A DNA stretch of 5,066 bases. Origin: Candidatus Atribacteria bacterium (GTDB lineage: Bacteria > Atribacterota > JALVIU01). Location: positions 1 to 5,066 of the forward strand of contig JALVIU010000141.1 of the NCBI GenBank assembly GCA_027028665.1, read 5' to 3'. This document shows, piece after piece, positions 1,302-5,066 of this stretch; position 1 is the first letter of the stretch, and each line of letters begins with the position of its first letter. Under the pieces are notes generated by a model that saw only the letters and a list, made by a program, of their open reading frames with translations, was not told where the DNA came from and did no database searches. Made by a program: the position numbers and the translations under genes.

Positions 1302-2123
1302 CTATTCACTTTCTTTTTCTTCTGCTTCTTCATTTTGGCTTTTTATTTTTACTTCATCTTTATTTTTTTGCAGGAAACTTCCTGTTCCACTTTTACCTGC
1401 AAAGAGTACAACGAGTGCTAAAATTCCTAACAAAAATGCAAGCCATGCTATAAATGTAGTAAAACCTCCTGCTTTTCTCTTTACTTTTTTCTGAAGCTCT
1501 ACAATTTTTTCCTCTGCTTCTTTCTGTGATGCAGCAAAATCCTCTTTTACCTTTGAAAGTGCCTGTCCTATACTTTCTTTCTCTGATTTAAGTGCCTCTA
1601 ATTCCTTTGCAAATGTAGAATTTTGCTTTGAAAGCTCATCTACTTTCTTAGAAAGTGCACTTAAAGTGTTATTTAAAGAAGTTACATTCTCCTTTAGTGA
1701 TTTTAACTCTGGAATTAGGGACTTAAAATTCGCAAGTTCCTTTTTATTGGCCTCTACCTCTTTAAGGATTGAATCAAATCTGGAAGATATATCAGATACC
1801 TTTTTGGTGACCTCTTGAGAAAGACCTGAAAGCTCCTTGTTTACCTTATCTTCAAGGGCATTCATCTTCTCCTGGGCAGATGATACCATCTGTTTTTCCT
1901 CTTCCTTAAATTTTTCAAGCTCACTTACCTTTTGCTGGAGCTTCTTAACACCCATTTCTACATCAAAAATCCTTGCCTTTATATCCTTTAGTTCTCCCAT
2001 AATGGAGCTCTGAAGCTCCTCTACTGTAAGCTCTCTACCTGTAGTTTCAGAAAAAGCAGTTAATGAGAACATAAAAGAAAATAGTATGACAATAGACAAC
2101 ACTATGATACCTTTTGACTTCAT
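1302..2123 (-). CDS. Exported coiled-coil protein with C-terminal membrane anchor
   Basis: I do not recognise a named family for this 273-residue protein. It starts with a signal peptide or signal anchor: a Lys-bearing start, a hydrophobic core at residues 5-24, and a possible cleavage after the AFS at 23-25. Residues about 33-215 are almost entirely charged and heptad-like (Lys/Glu/Leu/Ser-rich), so a long coiled coil is expected. A basic patch, KKVKRK (212-217), precedes a clear membrane segment at about 221-242 (FIAWLAFLLGILALVVLFAG). A roughly 30-residue highly charged tail ends in EEAEEKESE. The inferred topology is an external or periplasmic coiled-coil rod tethered by the C-terminal helix, with the short tail in the cytoplasm. 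A structural, spacer or sensor role is possible, but no catalytic motif is visible. The start is supported by a strong AAGGAGG site (2134-2140) ten bases before ATG. The gene has its own promoter upstream and a hairpin after the stop. Confidence 0.88.
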   Translation of the reverse strand: MKSKGIIVLSIVILFSFMFSLTAFSETTGRELTVEELQSSIMGELKDIKARIFDVEMGVKKLQQKVSELEKFKEEEKQMVSSAQEKMNALEDKVNKELSGLSQEVTKKVSDISSRFDSILKEVEANKKELANFKSLIPELKSLKENVTSLNNTLSALSKKVDELSKQNSTFAKELEALKSEKESIGQALSKVKEDFAASQKEAEEKIVELQKKVKRKAGGFTTFIAWLAFLLGILALVVLFAGKSGTGSFLQKNKDEVKIKSQNEEAEEKESE

Positions 2124-2197: not shown

Positions 2198-3079
2198 CTA
2201 TCTATGTAAGGAAATGCTTAACCTTTCAAGGGAAAGCATGGTTTCTCTGCGAATTTCAAAAGAGAATTTATCTATAAACTCTCGAGAAAGATTCAAAAAT
2301 TCAAATAATTCGCCATTCAAGACATAATAAGATGCCCCAGGGGTAGTTATACCATAGTATTTTACTATATCATTTGCTACCATGGTAACCACTGAAAGAA
2401 TTCTTGCTTTTTTACCGTGAAATTCCTCAGGTATATGATTATCATGATGAGATTCAATGGCTTTTATATATTCATACGGAAATCTCCACATCCTGGCGAG
2501 AAATCCACCCAAAAAAGCATGATCTATACCTGTAAGAGATCTCTCTATTTCAAAAAAGGGCACCCAATTATCGTTTGACTTTTCAATAGCCTCTTTAAAA
2601 AAAGAAGGGTACATAAGGGCTTCTACTATTTTTCCTATATCGTGCATAAGCGATGCGGTAAATATTTCTCCTATATGAGGAAAATCTATCTCTTTTCCTA
2701 TATATCTTGCTGTAATAGCTGATGCTAAACTGTGAAACCAAAAAGATCTCCAATCATAGTATGGAAGGTGGGTAAGAAATGTCTTGGTCATTGGTTTCAA
2801 TATATATTCAGATAGGTCAGAAAAACCGATTATATTTATAGCTTCTTCTATGTTACTAATCTTTCTTGGAAGACCGTAATATGCAGAGTTTACCATCCTG
2901 AGGATATTGAAAGAAAGAGCAGGGTCAGAGGATGCGATAAATACAAGTTCCCTCTCTATCTCAGGAGATCCCTCTATATCTACCTGGAGAAAGCTCTCAA
3001 GCAACCTTCCCACTTCTGCTAATGTAGGTAATTTTGTAAGGTTTTTTAATTTTCTCTGTATATCCCTATCTTTAAACAT
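2198..3079 (-). CDS. HDOD domain signalling protein
   Basis: This 293-residue protein, numbered from the ATG, is an HDOD-family protein over nearly its whole length, with no separate output or receiver domain. The N-terminal half has the HDOD signature: LPTLAEVGRLL (17-27), then a SSDPALSFNILRMVNSAYYG block (50-69) and IEEAINIIG (77-85). The HD-like half shows WFHSLASA with H116, LMHDIGK with H146 and D147, DHAFLGG with H187, an HH pair at 211-212 and D237. These are the positions that bind metal in true HD phosphohydrolases, so activity cannot be excluded, although most HDOD proteins are thought to act as non-enzymatic signalling or scaffolding modules. No GYP motif follows the HH pair. The ATG overlaps the helicase stop by eight bases (ATGTTTAA), which implies translational coupling. 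A TTG one codon upstream (3080-3082) is an alternative start. No signal peptide or membrane segment is seen, so it is cytoplasmic. Confidence 0.93.
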   Translation of the reverse strand: MFKDRDIQRKLKNLTKLPTLAEVGRLLESFLQVDIEGSPEIERELVFIASSDPALSFNILRMVNSAYYGLPRKISNIEEAINIIGFSDLSEYILKPMTKTFLTHLPYYDWRSFWFHSLASAITARYIGKEIDFPHIGEIFTASLMHDIGKIVEALMYPSFFKEAIEKSNDNWVPFFEIERSLTGIDHAFLGGFLARMWRFPYEYIKAIESHHDNHIPEEFHGKKARILSVVTMVANDIVKYYGITTPGASYYVLNGELFEFLNLSREFIDKFSFEIRRETMLSLERLSISLHR

Positions 3080-5066
3080 CAACTCTTACCTCATTGGAAG
3101 ATAGGTTGAGACAGAGTCCTCTACCCTTTATTGTTTTTATTATATCGCCTCTACCCATTTTCTTTGTAAGCTCCCCTTTATGATAACTTATCTGCTTCAA
3201 AGAAATATCGTAATTATCTTTCCATATATTGGATAAGATTTCATCATAGGTATATACCTTTCCAGGGTTTTTTGCAAGGAGTTTCAAAAGCTCAAATTGT
3301 TTATGGGTAAGGTCTACTCTTCTTCCATAAAATATTACAGTATCTGGCCTATCCTTTTCTATATATAAAACATAGCGGGATTCAGTATCTACAAGAGAGG
3401 ATTCAAGTTCTCTTATAATTTCCACCTTATAATGTGGTATAGGTATATAATTTATTAAGCTATAAGCTATCTCTATTAGCCAGATAAATCTATCCAGGAA
3501 TTCTGTTATAATCCCTGCTGTTAAACGATATCTCTCCTCCATATCCGAAAGTTCTTCTTTATGAATAAAATCGAGAATTATAAAGGTCTTTCTTATATGA
3601 TCTATATCCTTTTCTGTGAGATGCCCTAAAGAGAAGTGTGGAAAGATCTTAGCTATTTTTTCCCACCAGTTAAGATAAAGATTATATGGCATTGGATCAA
3701 GGTAAAACTTATGGAGTGTAGTAACATCCATAAATCGAAAGATAAAATCATCAATAGAAGTAACATCTTTATTTAAAAGCACCTCTTTTATCTTTAAAAA
3801 AGATGCAATATCTACACCTGACACAGCAATGAATCTCCCTAATATAGTAGGGGCCATATTTTGAGCCTCTCTCTTTATAAGTCCTTCTTCTTGTAGAAAT
3901 AAGGTACCTTTTTCTTTATCAATCTCTCCATTATATTTAAAATAAAGTTCCTCTTCCTTTATACCAAATACAATACTCCTTAATAGAAATGTATATACCT
4001 CATGGATATTCCTAAGCTCTATTTTCTGGGTTTTTTCTTTTTTGCATTCTATATGAAACTTATCGAAAAATATCGCCCTTCCATATGTAAATCTTTTTCC
4101 CCTTGCAGCCCTACCTATCATATTTTCTAAAAATCCTTTAGAAATAAAAAAGGATTCAGGAAATATAACATTTCTAAAGGGCATATTCACACCAAAGGCC
4201 AGGGTAGTTGTTGCAAATAAGAGCTTTATCTTACCTTTTGCAGTGAGTCTTTCAATAAACTTCCTCTCTTTATATGTAAGGTCACGACTATGGTATCCTA
4301 TTCCACGTGAAACATATTTATGGATATTTTTTGAAAATAAGGTATTTGGAAGATTTTCTACATCTATATCATGCCATATAGTAGGAAATCTTTCTCCCAA
4401 ATATGAAAAGGCCATTCTTGCCTTGCTTCTTGTAGGAAAAAAAATAATTGCTCCATCCTCTTTCCAAAACCTCTCCAATAAAAGAAAAAATTCTTCATCC
4501 TGACTGTATCTCTTATTTAAAAGTCTCTCTGACTTTATAGAAGATCCCTCTTCCTCCCTCCAATAAAATATACCATCTTCTACATATCCTATATGTAACG
4601 GTGTAGATCTTTTAAAGGATGAAATAAGTGTTGCACCGATATGTCTGGCAAGCCTATGGGGAGAGGATATATAAGATGTAGTAATCAGAATCTTAACGCC
4701 CCTCTTTTTTACATAGGAAAGTATTATATCTATATACGGGCCTCTTACAGGATCTTCTAATATGGTAAGTTCATCAAAGATTAAAAGTCCAATATTTCTA
4801 AGGAAGATCCTGTTTTTTTGAAGAAAATAAGCAAATTTTTCATATACAGTAAGTAATATATCATAGTTACCTTTAAAGATATAAGAGTCTTCACTCCTTC
4901 TTTCATGGGTAGATATACGCAGTGTGGCATCAAAAAAGTTGGTTACAAATTTAAAATCTTCCTCTTTCTCTTCTATTAATGATTTAAGTGGAGAAAGATA
5001 TACGACCTTTTTTCCATTAGAAAGTGCACTTGCTATAAAGTGTTCCACTATAAGAGATTTACCTGA
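3072..5066 (-). CDS. Ski2/Hel308-like SF2 helicase with C-terminal OmpR-type winged helix, partial at N-terminus
   Basis: The frame is open to the right edge; 664 residues are visible, numbered here from the edge. It opens with SGKS (1-4), the end of Walker A. Then come motif Ia SPLKSLIEEK (25-34), a Ski2-type TVYEKF (73-78), motif II DELT (98-101) with a downstream RGP typical of Ski2 enzymes, a divergent motif III TTSY (129-132), motif IV IIFFPTRSKA (207-216), GIGYHSRDL (255-263), motif V ATTTLAFGVNMP (285-296) and motif VI GRAARG (318-323). The next region fits the Hel308 winged-helix and ratchet domains: LGRFIAVSGVDIASF near 409-423, then a helical bundle with ERYRLTAGI near 511-519. The last ~90 residues (about 565-653) are an OmpR/PhoB-type DNA-binding winged helix: VDLTHKQFELLKLLAKNPGK, YDEILSNIW, then TIKGRGLCL for the wing. 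An ATP-driven DNA or RNA unwinding or remodelling role is inferred, with the C-terminal domain targeting it to DNA. The substrate is unknown. It overlaps and probably co-translates with the HDOD gene. Confidence 0.92.
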   Translation of the reverse strand, partial: SGKSLIVEHFIASALSNGKKVVYLSPLKSLIEEKEEDFKFVTNFFDATLRISTHERRSEDSYIFKGNYDILLTVYEKFAYFLQKNRIFLRNIGLLIFDELTILEDPVRGPYIDIILSYVKKRGVKILITTSYISSPHRLARHIGATLISSFKRSTPLHIGYVEDGIFYWREEEGSSIKSERLLNKRYSQDEEFFLLLERFWKEDGAIIFFPTRSKARMAFSYLGERFPTIWHDIDVENLPNTLFSKNIHKYVSRGIGYHSRDLTYKERKFIERLTAKGKIKLLFATTTLAFGVNMPFRNVIFPESFFISKGFLENMIGRAARGKRFTYGRAIFFDKFHIECKKEKTQKIELRNIHEVYTFLLRSIVFGIKEEELYFKYNGEIDKEKGTLFLQEEGLIKREAQNMAPTILGRFIAVSGVDIASFLKIKEVLLNKDVTSIDDFIFRFMDVTTLHKFYLDPMPYNLYLNWWEKIAKIFPHFSLGHLTEKDIDHIRKTFIILDFIHKEELSDMEERYRLTAGIITEFLDRFIWLIEIAYSLINYIPIPHYKVEIIRELESSLVDTESRYVLYIEKDRPDTVIFYGRRVDLTHKQFELLKLLAKNPGKVYTYDEILSNIWKDNYDISLKQISYHKGELTKKMGRGDIIKTIKGRGLCLNLSSNEVRVDV
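3088..3092 (-). promoter_or_regulatory. Ribosome binding site of the HDOD gene, inside the helicase gene
   Basis: GAGGT on the minus strand lies eight bases before the ATG at 3079 and five bases before the alternative TTG at 3082. Both spacings work, but the better start codon and the more usual spacing favour ATG. The site sits within the last codons of the helicase gene, so helicase translation would pass over it, which fits coupled expression. Confidence 0.6.

Follow-up and report, generated by a model that had tools for sequence, protein, structure and literature searches.

The window, by which we mean the whole analysed stretch of 5,066 nucleotides, encodes on its reverse strand a Hel308-like helicase that ends in an OmpR/PhoB-type winged helix, and the same fusion recurs in five bacterial phyla. 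In our reading, the protein is probably a bacterial Hel308-like SF2 DNA helicase, active in repair or at forks, to which an anchor for duplex DNA has been added, and the winged helix has likely been carried at the helicase C-terminus for long evolutionary time. The architecture is that of an extra domain on a known helicase type: both parts are known, and it is their combination for which no description was found in the full text of open-access papers and which no curated family model covers, in line with the original prediction, made from the DNA letters, which knew of no such family. The features of the window considered here are as follows.

3072..5066, reverse strand: Hel308-like helicase with C-terminal OmpR-type winged helix, 664 residues and stop
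4638..5066, reverse strand: RecA1 domain, residues 1-143 (Pfam DEAD residues 1-130 and model), with motif I SGKS at the contig edge and motif II DELT near residues 98-101
4068..4598, reverse strand: RecA2 domain, residues 157-333 (Pfam Helicase_C residues 255-323, invariant columns and model), with motif IVa-like GYHSRDL, motif V ATTTLAFGVN and motif VI ENMIGRAAR
3819..4007, reverse strand: internal winged helix, Hel308-type domain 3, residues ~354-416 (model and fold match)
3393..3809, reverse strand: ratchet-type helical domain 4, residues ~420-558 (fold match and weak Pfam hit)
3075..3368, reverse strand: C-terminal OmpR/PhoB-type winged helix, residues 567-664 (Trans_reg_C core 3111-3326), with recognition helix SLKQISYHKGELTKKM and wing IIKTIKGRGLCLNL
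2198..3079, reverse strand: HDOD-domain protein (HDOD E 6.7e-41), whose ATG overlaps the end of the helicase gene by 8 bases

As originally proposed, helicase and winged helix lie in one unbroken frame of 664 codons. It is 5'-truncated at motif I, and the protein lacks the Q motif and the first part of motif I because the contig ends there. Relatives put the missing N-terminal piece at ~50-165 residues; searching the rest of the genome for this piece returned no match, which is weakly informative since the piece is short. Along the protein, Pfam reports, in this order, DEAD (E 8.6e-15) and Helicase_C (E 2.8e-6), both above the Pfam cut-offs, a weak hit with Hel308 domain 4 (Helicase_dom4_arc, 14 bits, below the 27-bit cut-off), and Trans_reg_C. 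The AlphaFold2 model of the window protein (mean pLDDT 84.9, pTM 0.74) exhibits a helix-helix-helix-strand-strand order in domain 3 and a short low-confidence link between the ratchet domain and the OmpR-type winged helix. A fold search with this model reports archaeal Hel308 crystal structures as the best hits (Z 26-28, ~550-585 residues aligned), the match spanning residues 1-586 and beyond, and the model of a full-length relative matches the same structures. Sequence search of the PDB also returns Hel308 as best for the core (E 1.6e-25), and Hel308-type models rank first for it in NCBIfam. Together, the Pfam, NCBIfam, PDB and fold matches bear out the Ski2/Hel308-like helicase of the original prediction. 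The helicase domain of DNA polymerase theta, Brr2, Ski2 and Mtr4 share the Ski2-like core with ratchet, but their fold scores are lower than those of Hel308 and their accessory domains differ; we know of no member of these four carrying an OmpR-type tail.

In the literature, Hel308 and HELQ figure as repair helicases of archaea and animals. RecA1, RecA2, the internal winged helix and the ratchet are common to archaeal Hel308/Hjm, metazoan HELQ and the window protein, whereas the latter is bacterial and possesses the extra C-terminal OmpR-type winged helix. In place of the DEAH box of Hel308/HELQ, motif II reads DELT in the window protein and DELQ, DEMQ or DEIQ in most relatives. Motif IVa, defined in Hel308/HELQ as AF/YHHAGL (PMC10484726), becomes GYHSRDL in the window protein and, for example, AYHNADL or AFHNADL in relatives, with only the Y/F-H and the L kept. 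The motifs GRAAR and TTTLAFGVN are kept in the window protein and form invariant columns in the alignments with relatives. Both alignment and model indicate that the domain-5 helix-loop-helix of Hel308/HELQ is absent from the window protein, the tail coming straight after the ratchet, whereas long relatives keep it. The truncated window protein scores 106.9 bits with NF040935, for which the Hel308 equivalog cut-off is 1200, and 132.6 bits with the best NCBIfam model (cut-off 891); longer relatives are likewise below the equivalog cut-off. Because it falls below this cut-off and is devoid of the DEAH box and of domain 5, motif IVa being partly kept, the window protein is filed, on sequence and model, as Hel308-like and not as Hel308. 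According to one review, the group that described archaeal Hjm had found nothing similar to its sequence in bacteria or yeast (PMC11355030).

The C-terminal domain was assigned from profile matches and from the secondary-structure order of the model, the Foldseek/VIA lists being filled by the helicase. HMM search reports the Pfam domain Trans_reg_C (E 6.6e-14; residues 581-652; 52.2 bits for a cut-off of 26.2), response-regulator winged helices of the PDB match residues 569-651 by sequence (E ~1e-8), and the best NCBIfam models are VanR/PhoB-type regulators. In a genome-wide Trans_reg_C search, the window domain is recovered at 3111-3326 on the reverse strand (E 4.2e-15), with 3 sites in the whole genome. 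The modelled tail (residues 567-662, pLDDT mostly 84-95) is made up of N-terminal strands, three helices, a hairpin wing and a C-terminal strand, which is the OmpR order. As judged from profiles and model, the tail is thus a true OmpR-type winged helix, as had been predicted, and the span first given for it, 3072-3360, fits the modelled 3075-3368. It shares its fold and strand-helix-wing plan with the PF00486 effector domain of response regulators and scores above the cut-off of that family. In contrast to OmpR/PhoB response regulators, the domain is fused to a helicase and has no receiver: Pfam returns no Response_reg match in the window protein, none of the 22 receiver sites of the genome lies on the window contig, and the full-length relatives are devoid of a receiver domain. 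The helicase tails also possess hallmarks of their own, namely an RPDRI(I/F)F lead-in and an extra C-terminal strand, both additional to the response-regulator domain, a changed recognition helix keeping one histidine, and a (K/G)RG wing. The response-regulator signature R-T-(I/V)-D-V-H-I is replaced, in the window protein by LKQISYHK, with only the H in common. The recognition helix is basic, with a mean net charge of +2.4 in helicase tails as compared with +1.9 in response regulators (+3 in the window protein), and its sequence differs strongly from phylum to phylum. Since the base-contact positions differ from those of response regulators, the specificity of the tail could be altered or lost.

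The original prediction had proposed to collect homologues and ask whether the fusion is conserved, and it is, across Atribacterota, Hydrogenedentota, Sumerlaeota, Armatimonadota (Zipacnadia) and a Coatesbacteria contig, as well as in unassigned bacteria. The relatives were recovered by alignment-based search of genome contigs, the window protein alone as query recovering none; 49 ORFs carry helicase and tail, a count that includes a few duplicate Atribacterota loci. Full-length homologues with the same tail comprise 865-1097 residues. They possess all five Hel308 domains followed by the tail, and their helix-hairpin domain before the tail agrees with the earlier statement that Hel308 enzymes usually end in such a domain. 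A modelled Atribacterota relative (933 residues, pLDDT 82.1) follows the same plan, with the domain-5 helices kept at ~723-780 and a disordered linker (residues 785-819) leading from domain 5 to the tail. Within Atribacterota, a phylum that has received little study, tailed helicases occur in the family of the window and in families f2 and f5; families f3, f4, f6 and f7 gave no long match to the fusion profile. Relatives from Planctomycetota, Zixibacteria and Myxococcales exhibit C-terminal domains without a Pfam name, and HHalign comparison of these divergent ends with the tail profile reports probabilities of 92 and 98% (E 8e-7 and 3.5e-13), as against 0.2% for a Paenibacillus-type C-terminus used as negative control. 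Binatia members end after the domain-5 region. Viral contigs hold only 3 relatives; no phage or plasmid record reaches 80% coverage of the query, and matches fall mainly in the helicase region. A chance match is excluded by the E-values and by the conservation in other genera and phyla. An assembly chimera was also considered and is ruled out, as the fusion recurs in many genomes, including one of 3.29 Mb in a single contig (G061). By sequence comparison, the tail is a regular component in a broad and uncharacterised clade of bacterial helicases and not an oddity of the window genome. Such a wide clade, combining the five-domain plan of Hel308 with a regulator-type DNA-binding tail, would show how OmpR-type domains are reusable outside signalling, and offers a natural setting in which to ask how a Hel308 motor is affected by an added duplex-binding module.

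Phylogenetic analysis of the tails splits those of the helicases from those of response regulators across a single branch (SH-aLRT 97). A second tail tree, built from a trimmed core with 29 response regulators, likewise sets the regulators apart on one side of a branch (SH-aLRT 93, a value that holds with row RR_L025, a contig-cut helicase tail and not a regulator, set aside). On the helicase-core tree, in which many deep forks are weak, tail presence, clear or divergent, needs four changes, which fits an old gain with losses. Because helicase tails separate from response regulators, the trees point to one old capture of the winged helix, then inherited with the helicase. A recent local capture of a response-regulator tail was rejected, as the helicase tails lie apart from the 29 response regulators, many of which come from the same phylum. 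The window row forms a long branch in the core tree (2.85 changes per column), and this, together with the DELT motif II, the divergent motif IVa and the lack of domain 5, suggests that the window protein may have shifted function.

If the motor behaves as its homology and fold suggest, it would translocate 3'-5' on single-stranded DNA as Hel308 does and work at forks or recombination intermediates; for the window protein, 3'-5' ATP-dependent DNA unwinding is predicted, as is DNA binding by its tail. The tail would bind duplex DNA next to the unwinding site, and thereby may load the enzyme at ss/ds junctions or hold it there. In the window protein, which has no domain 5, it may take over the role of brake that this domain has in Hel308. 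A response to phosphorylation would not be expected. Outside Atribacterota the gene neighbours are varied and mostly unrelated, as expected for a stand-alone repair enzyme, and no context is conserved outside part of Atribacterota. A point against the repair-helicase reading is that the helicase gene of the window overlaps an HDOD regulator gene, a hint of a signalling context.

The 8-base overlap suggests translational coupling, in the window lineage only, and the HDOD gene is probably co-translated with the helicase. Beyond it, on the same strand, lie the genes of a coiled-coil protein and then of a PAS histidine kinase. The former (1302-2123, reverse strand; 273 residues) appears to consist of a signal sequence or membrane anchor, then a long coiled coil, and a transmembrane helix at the C-terminus, and returned only generic coiled-coil matches. 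A conserved signalling operon with the HDOD or kinase genes was rejected: HDOD and coiled-coil genes are absent beside the relatives, and the kinase of the window matched only a generic kinase near one relative locus. Several f2/f5 copies of the helicase gene in Atribacterota adjoin instead a cassette encoding an HTH_36/DnaD_N-like protein, a small sigma-70 region 2/HTH_16 protein, DUF1659, DUF2922, a holin-like protein, an M15 peptidase and YvrJ (L034, L040, L045, L047, L049 and L051; partly L035 and L041). The DUF1659/DUF2922 cassette is also present in Atribacterota families without the helicase, and was sought without success in the genome of the window. DUF1659 and DUF2922 occur in Thermotoga maritima as well. 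Upstream of the helicase genes, no convincing tandem repeats and no conserved site were found. Repeats rarer than ~5% of shuffles precede only two genes (L034 and L037); autoregulatory tandem repeats were dismissed, as these low shuffle values come only from T-rich low-complexity sequence.

Alternatively, the tail could be a sequence-specific binder sending the helicase to defined sites on the chromosome, such as repeats, an origin or a terminus of replication, at which DNA would be remodelled or bound proteins removed by the motor. We regard this as unlikely: the OmpR fold, the basic recognition helix, the conserved wing and the inheritance of the tail together with the helicase are consistent with it, but the strong variation of the recognition helices among phyla, the upstream regions without a conserved site and a genomic context that is conserved only in part of Atribacterota argue against it. 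It is equally doubtful that, in a broad and undescribed bacterial clade of Hel308-type helicases, a captured transcription-factor domain guides the SF2 motor by sequence to chosen chromosomal sites and, in the window lineage, replaces the brake.

A poorer prospect is that these helicases are components of conflict or defence systems whose terminal modules are interchangeable. Sister clades do carry other modules, the f2/f5 genes adjoin the sigma-factor, holin and peptidase cassette, and PADLOC models of HamB, from the Hachiman system, match the window protein weakly. However, the HamB matches are limited to the common helicase core and do not extend over the whole model, the checked neighbours of winged-helix members are not defence genes, and the cassette occurs in helicase-less families and was not found in the window's genome. 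No HamA was found among the window genes, the window being cut on the helicase side. Regarding the modules themselves, a Nostocales MAG (L131:4460-7447, forward strand) encodes a caspase (Peptidase C14, EACC1-associated type) fused N-terminally to a Hel308-like helicase, with which L133, L137 and L139 group on the helicase tree. The sister clade of Paenibacillus, Zixibacteria and KSB3 (L127:8001-10751, forward strand; L128, L132 and L116) possesses a different C-terminus with a GEPD...QVTAK-like pattern, which by eye looks like a PD-(D/E)XK nuclease.

The original suggestion of an ATP-dependent transcription regulator, with the winged helix on promoters and the motor acting on DNA or RNA polymerase, finds an echo in the kinship of the domain with PhoB/OmpR effectors, in the overlapping HDOD gene and in the histidine kinase gene further along the strand, but is highly improbable given the missing receiver, the Hel308 fold of the motor, the replaced recognition signature, relatives that lie mostly among unrelated genes without a retained HDOD neighbour or, outside part of one phylum, any conserved one, and upstream repeats confined to two T-rich low-complexity regions.

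Lastly, three short paralogues of 676-724 residues (L047:7744-9918, L048:638-2668 and L049:4033-6132, all on the reverse strand) are devoid of domains 3-5. Their motif VI is degraded (GKAG versus GRAGR) and their winged helix is well conserved; they are possibly inactive helicases kept for DNA binding.
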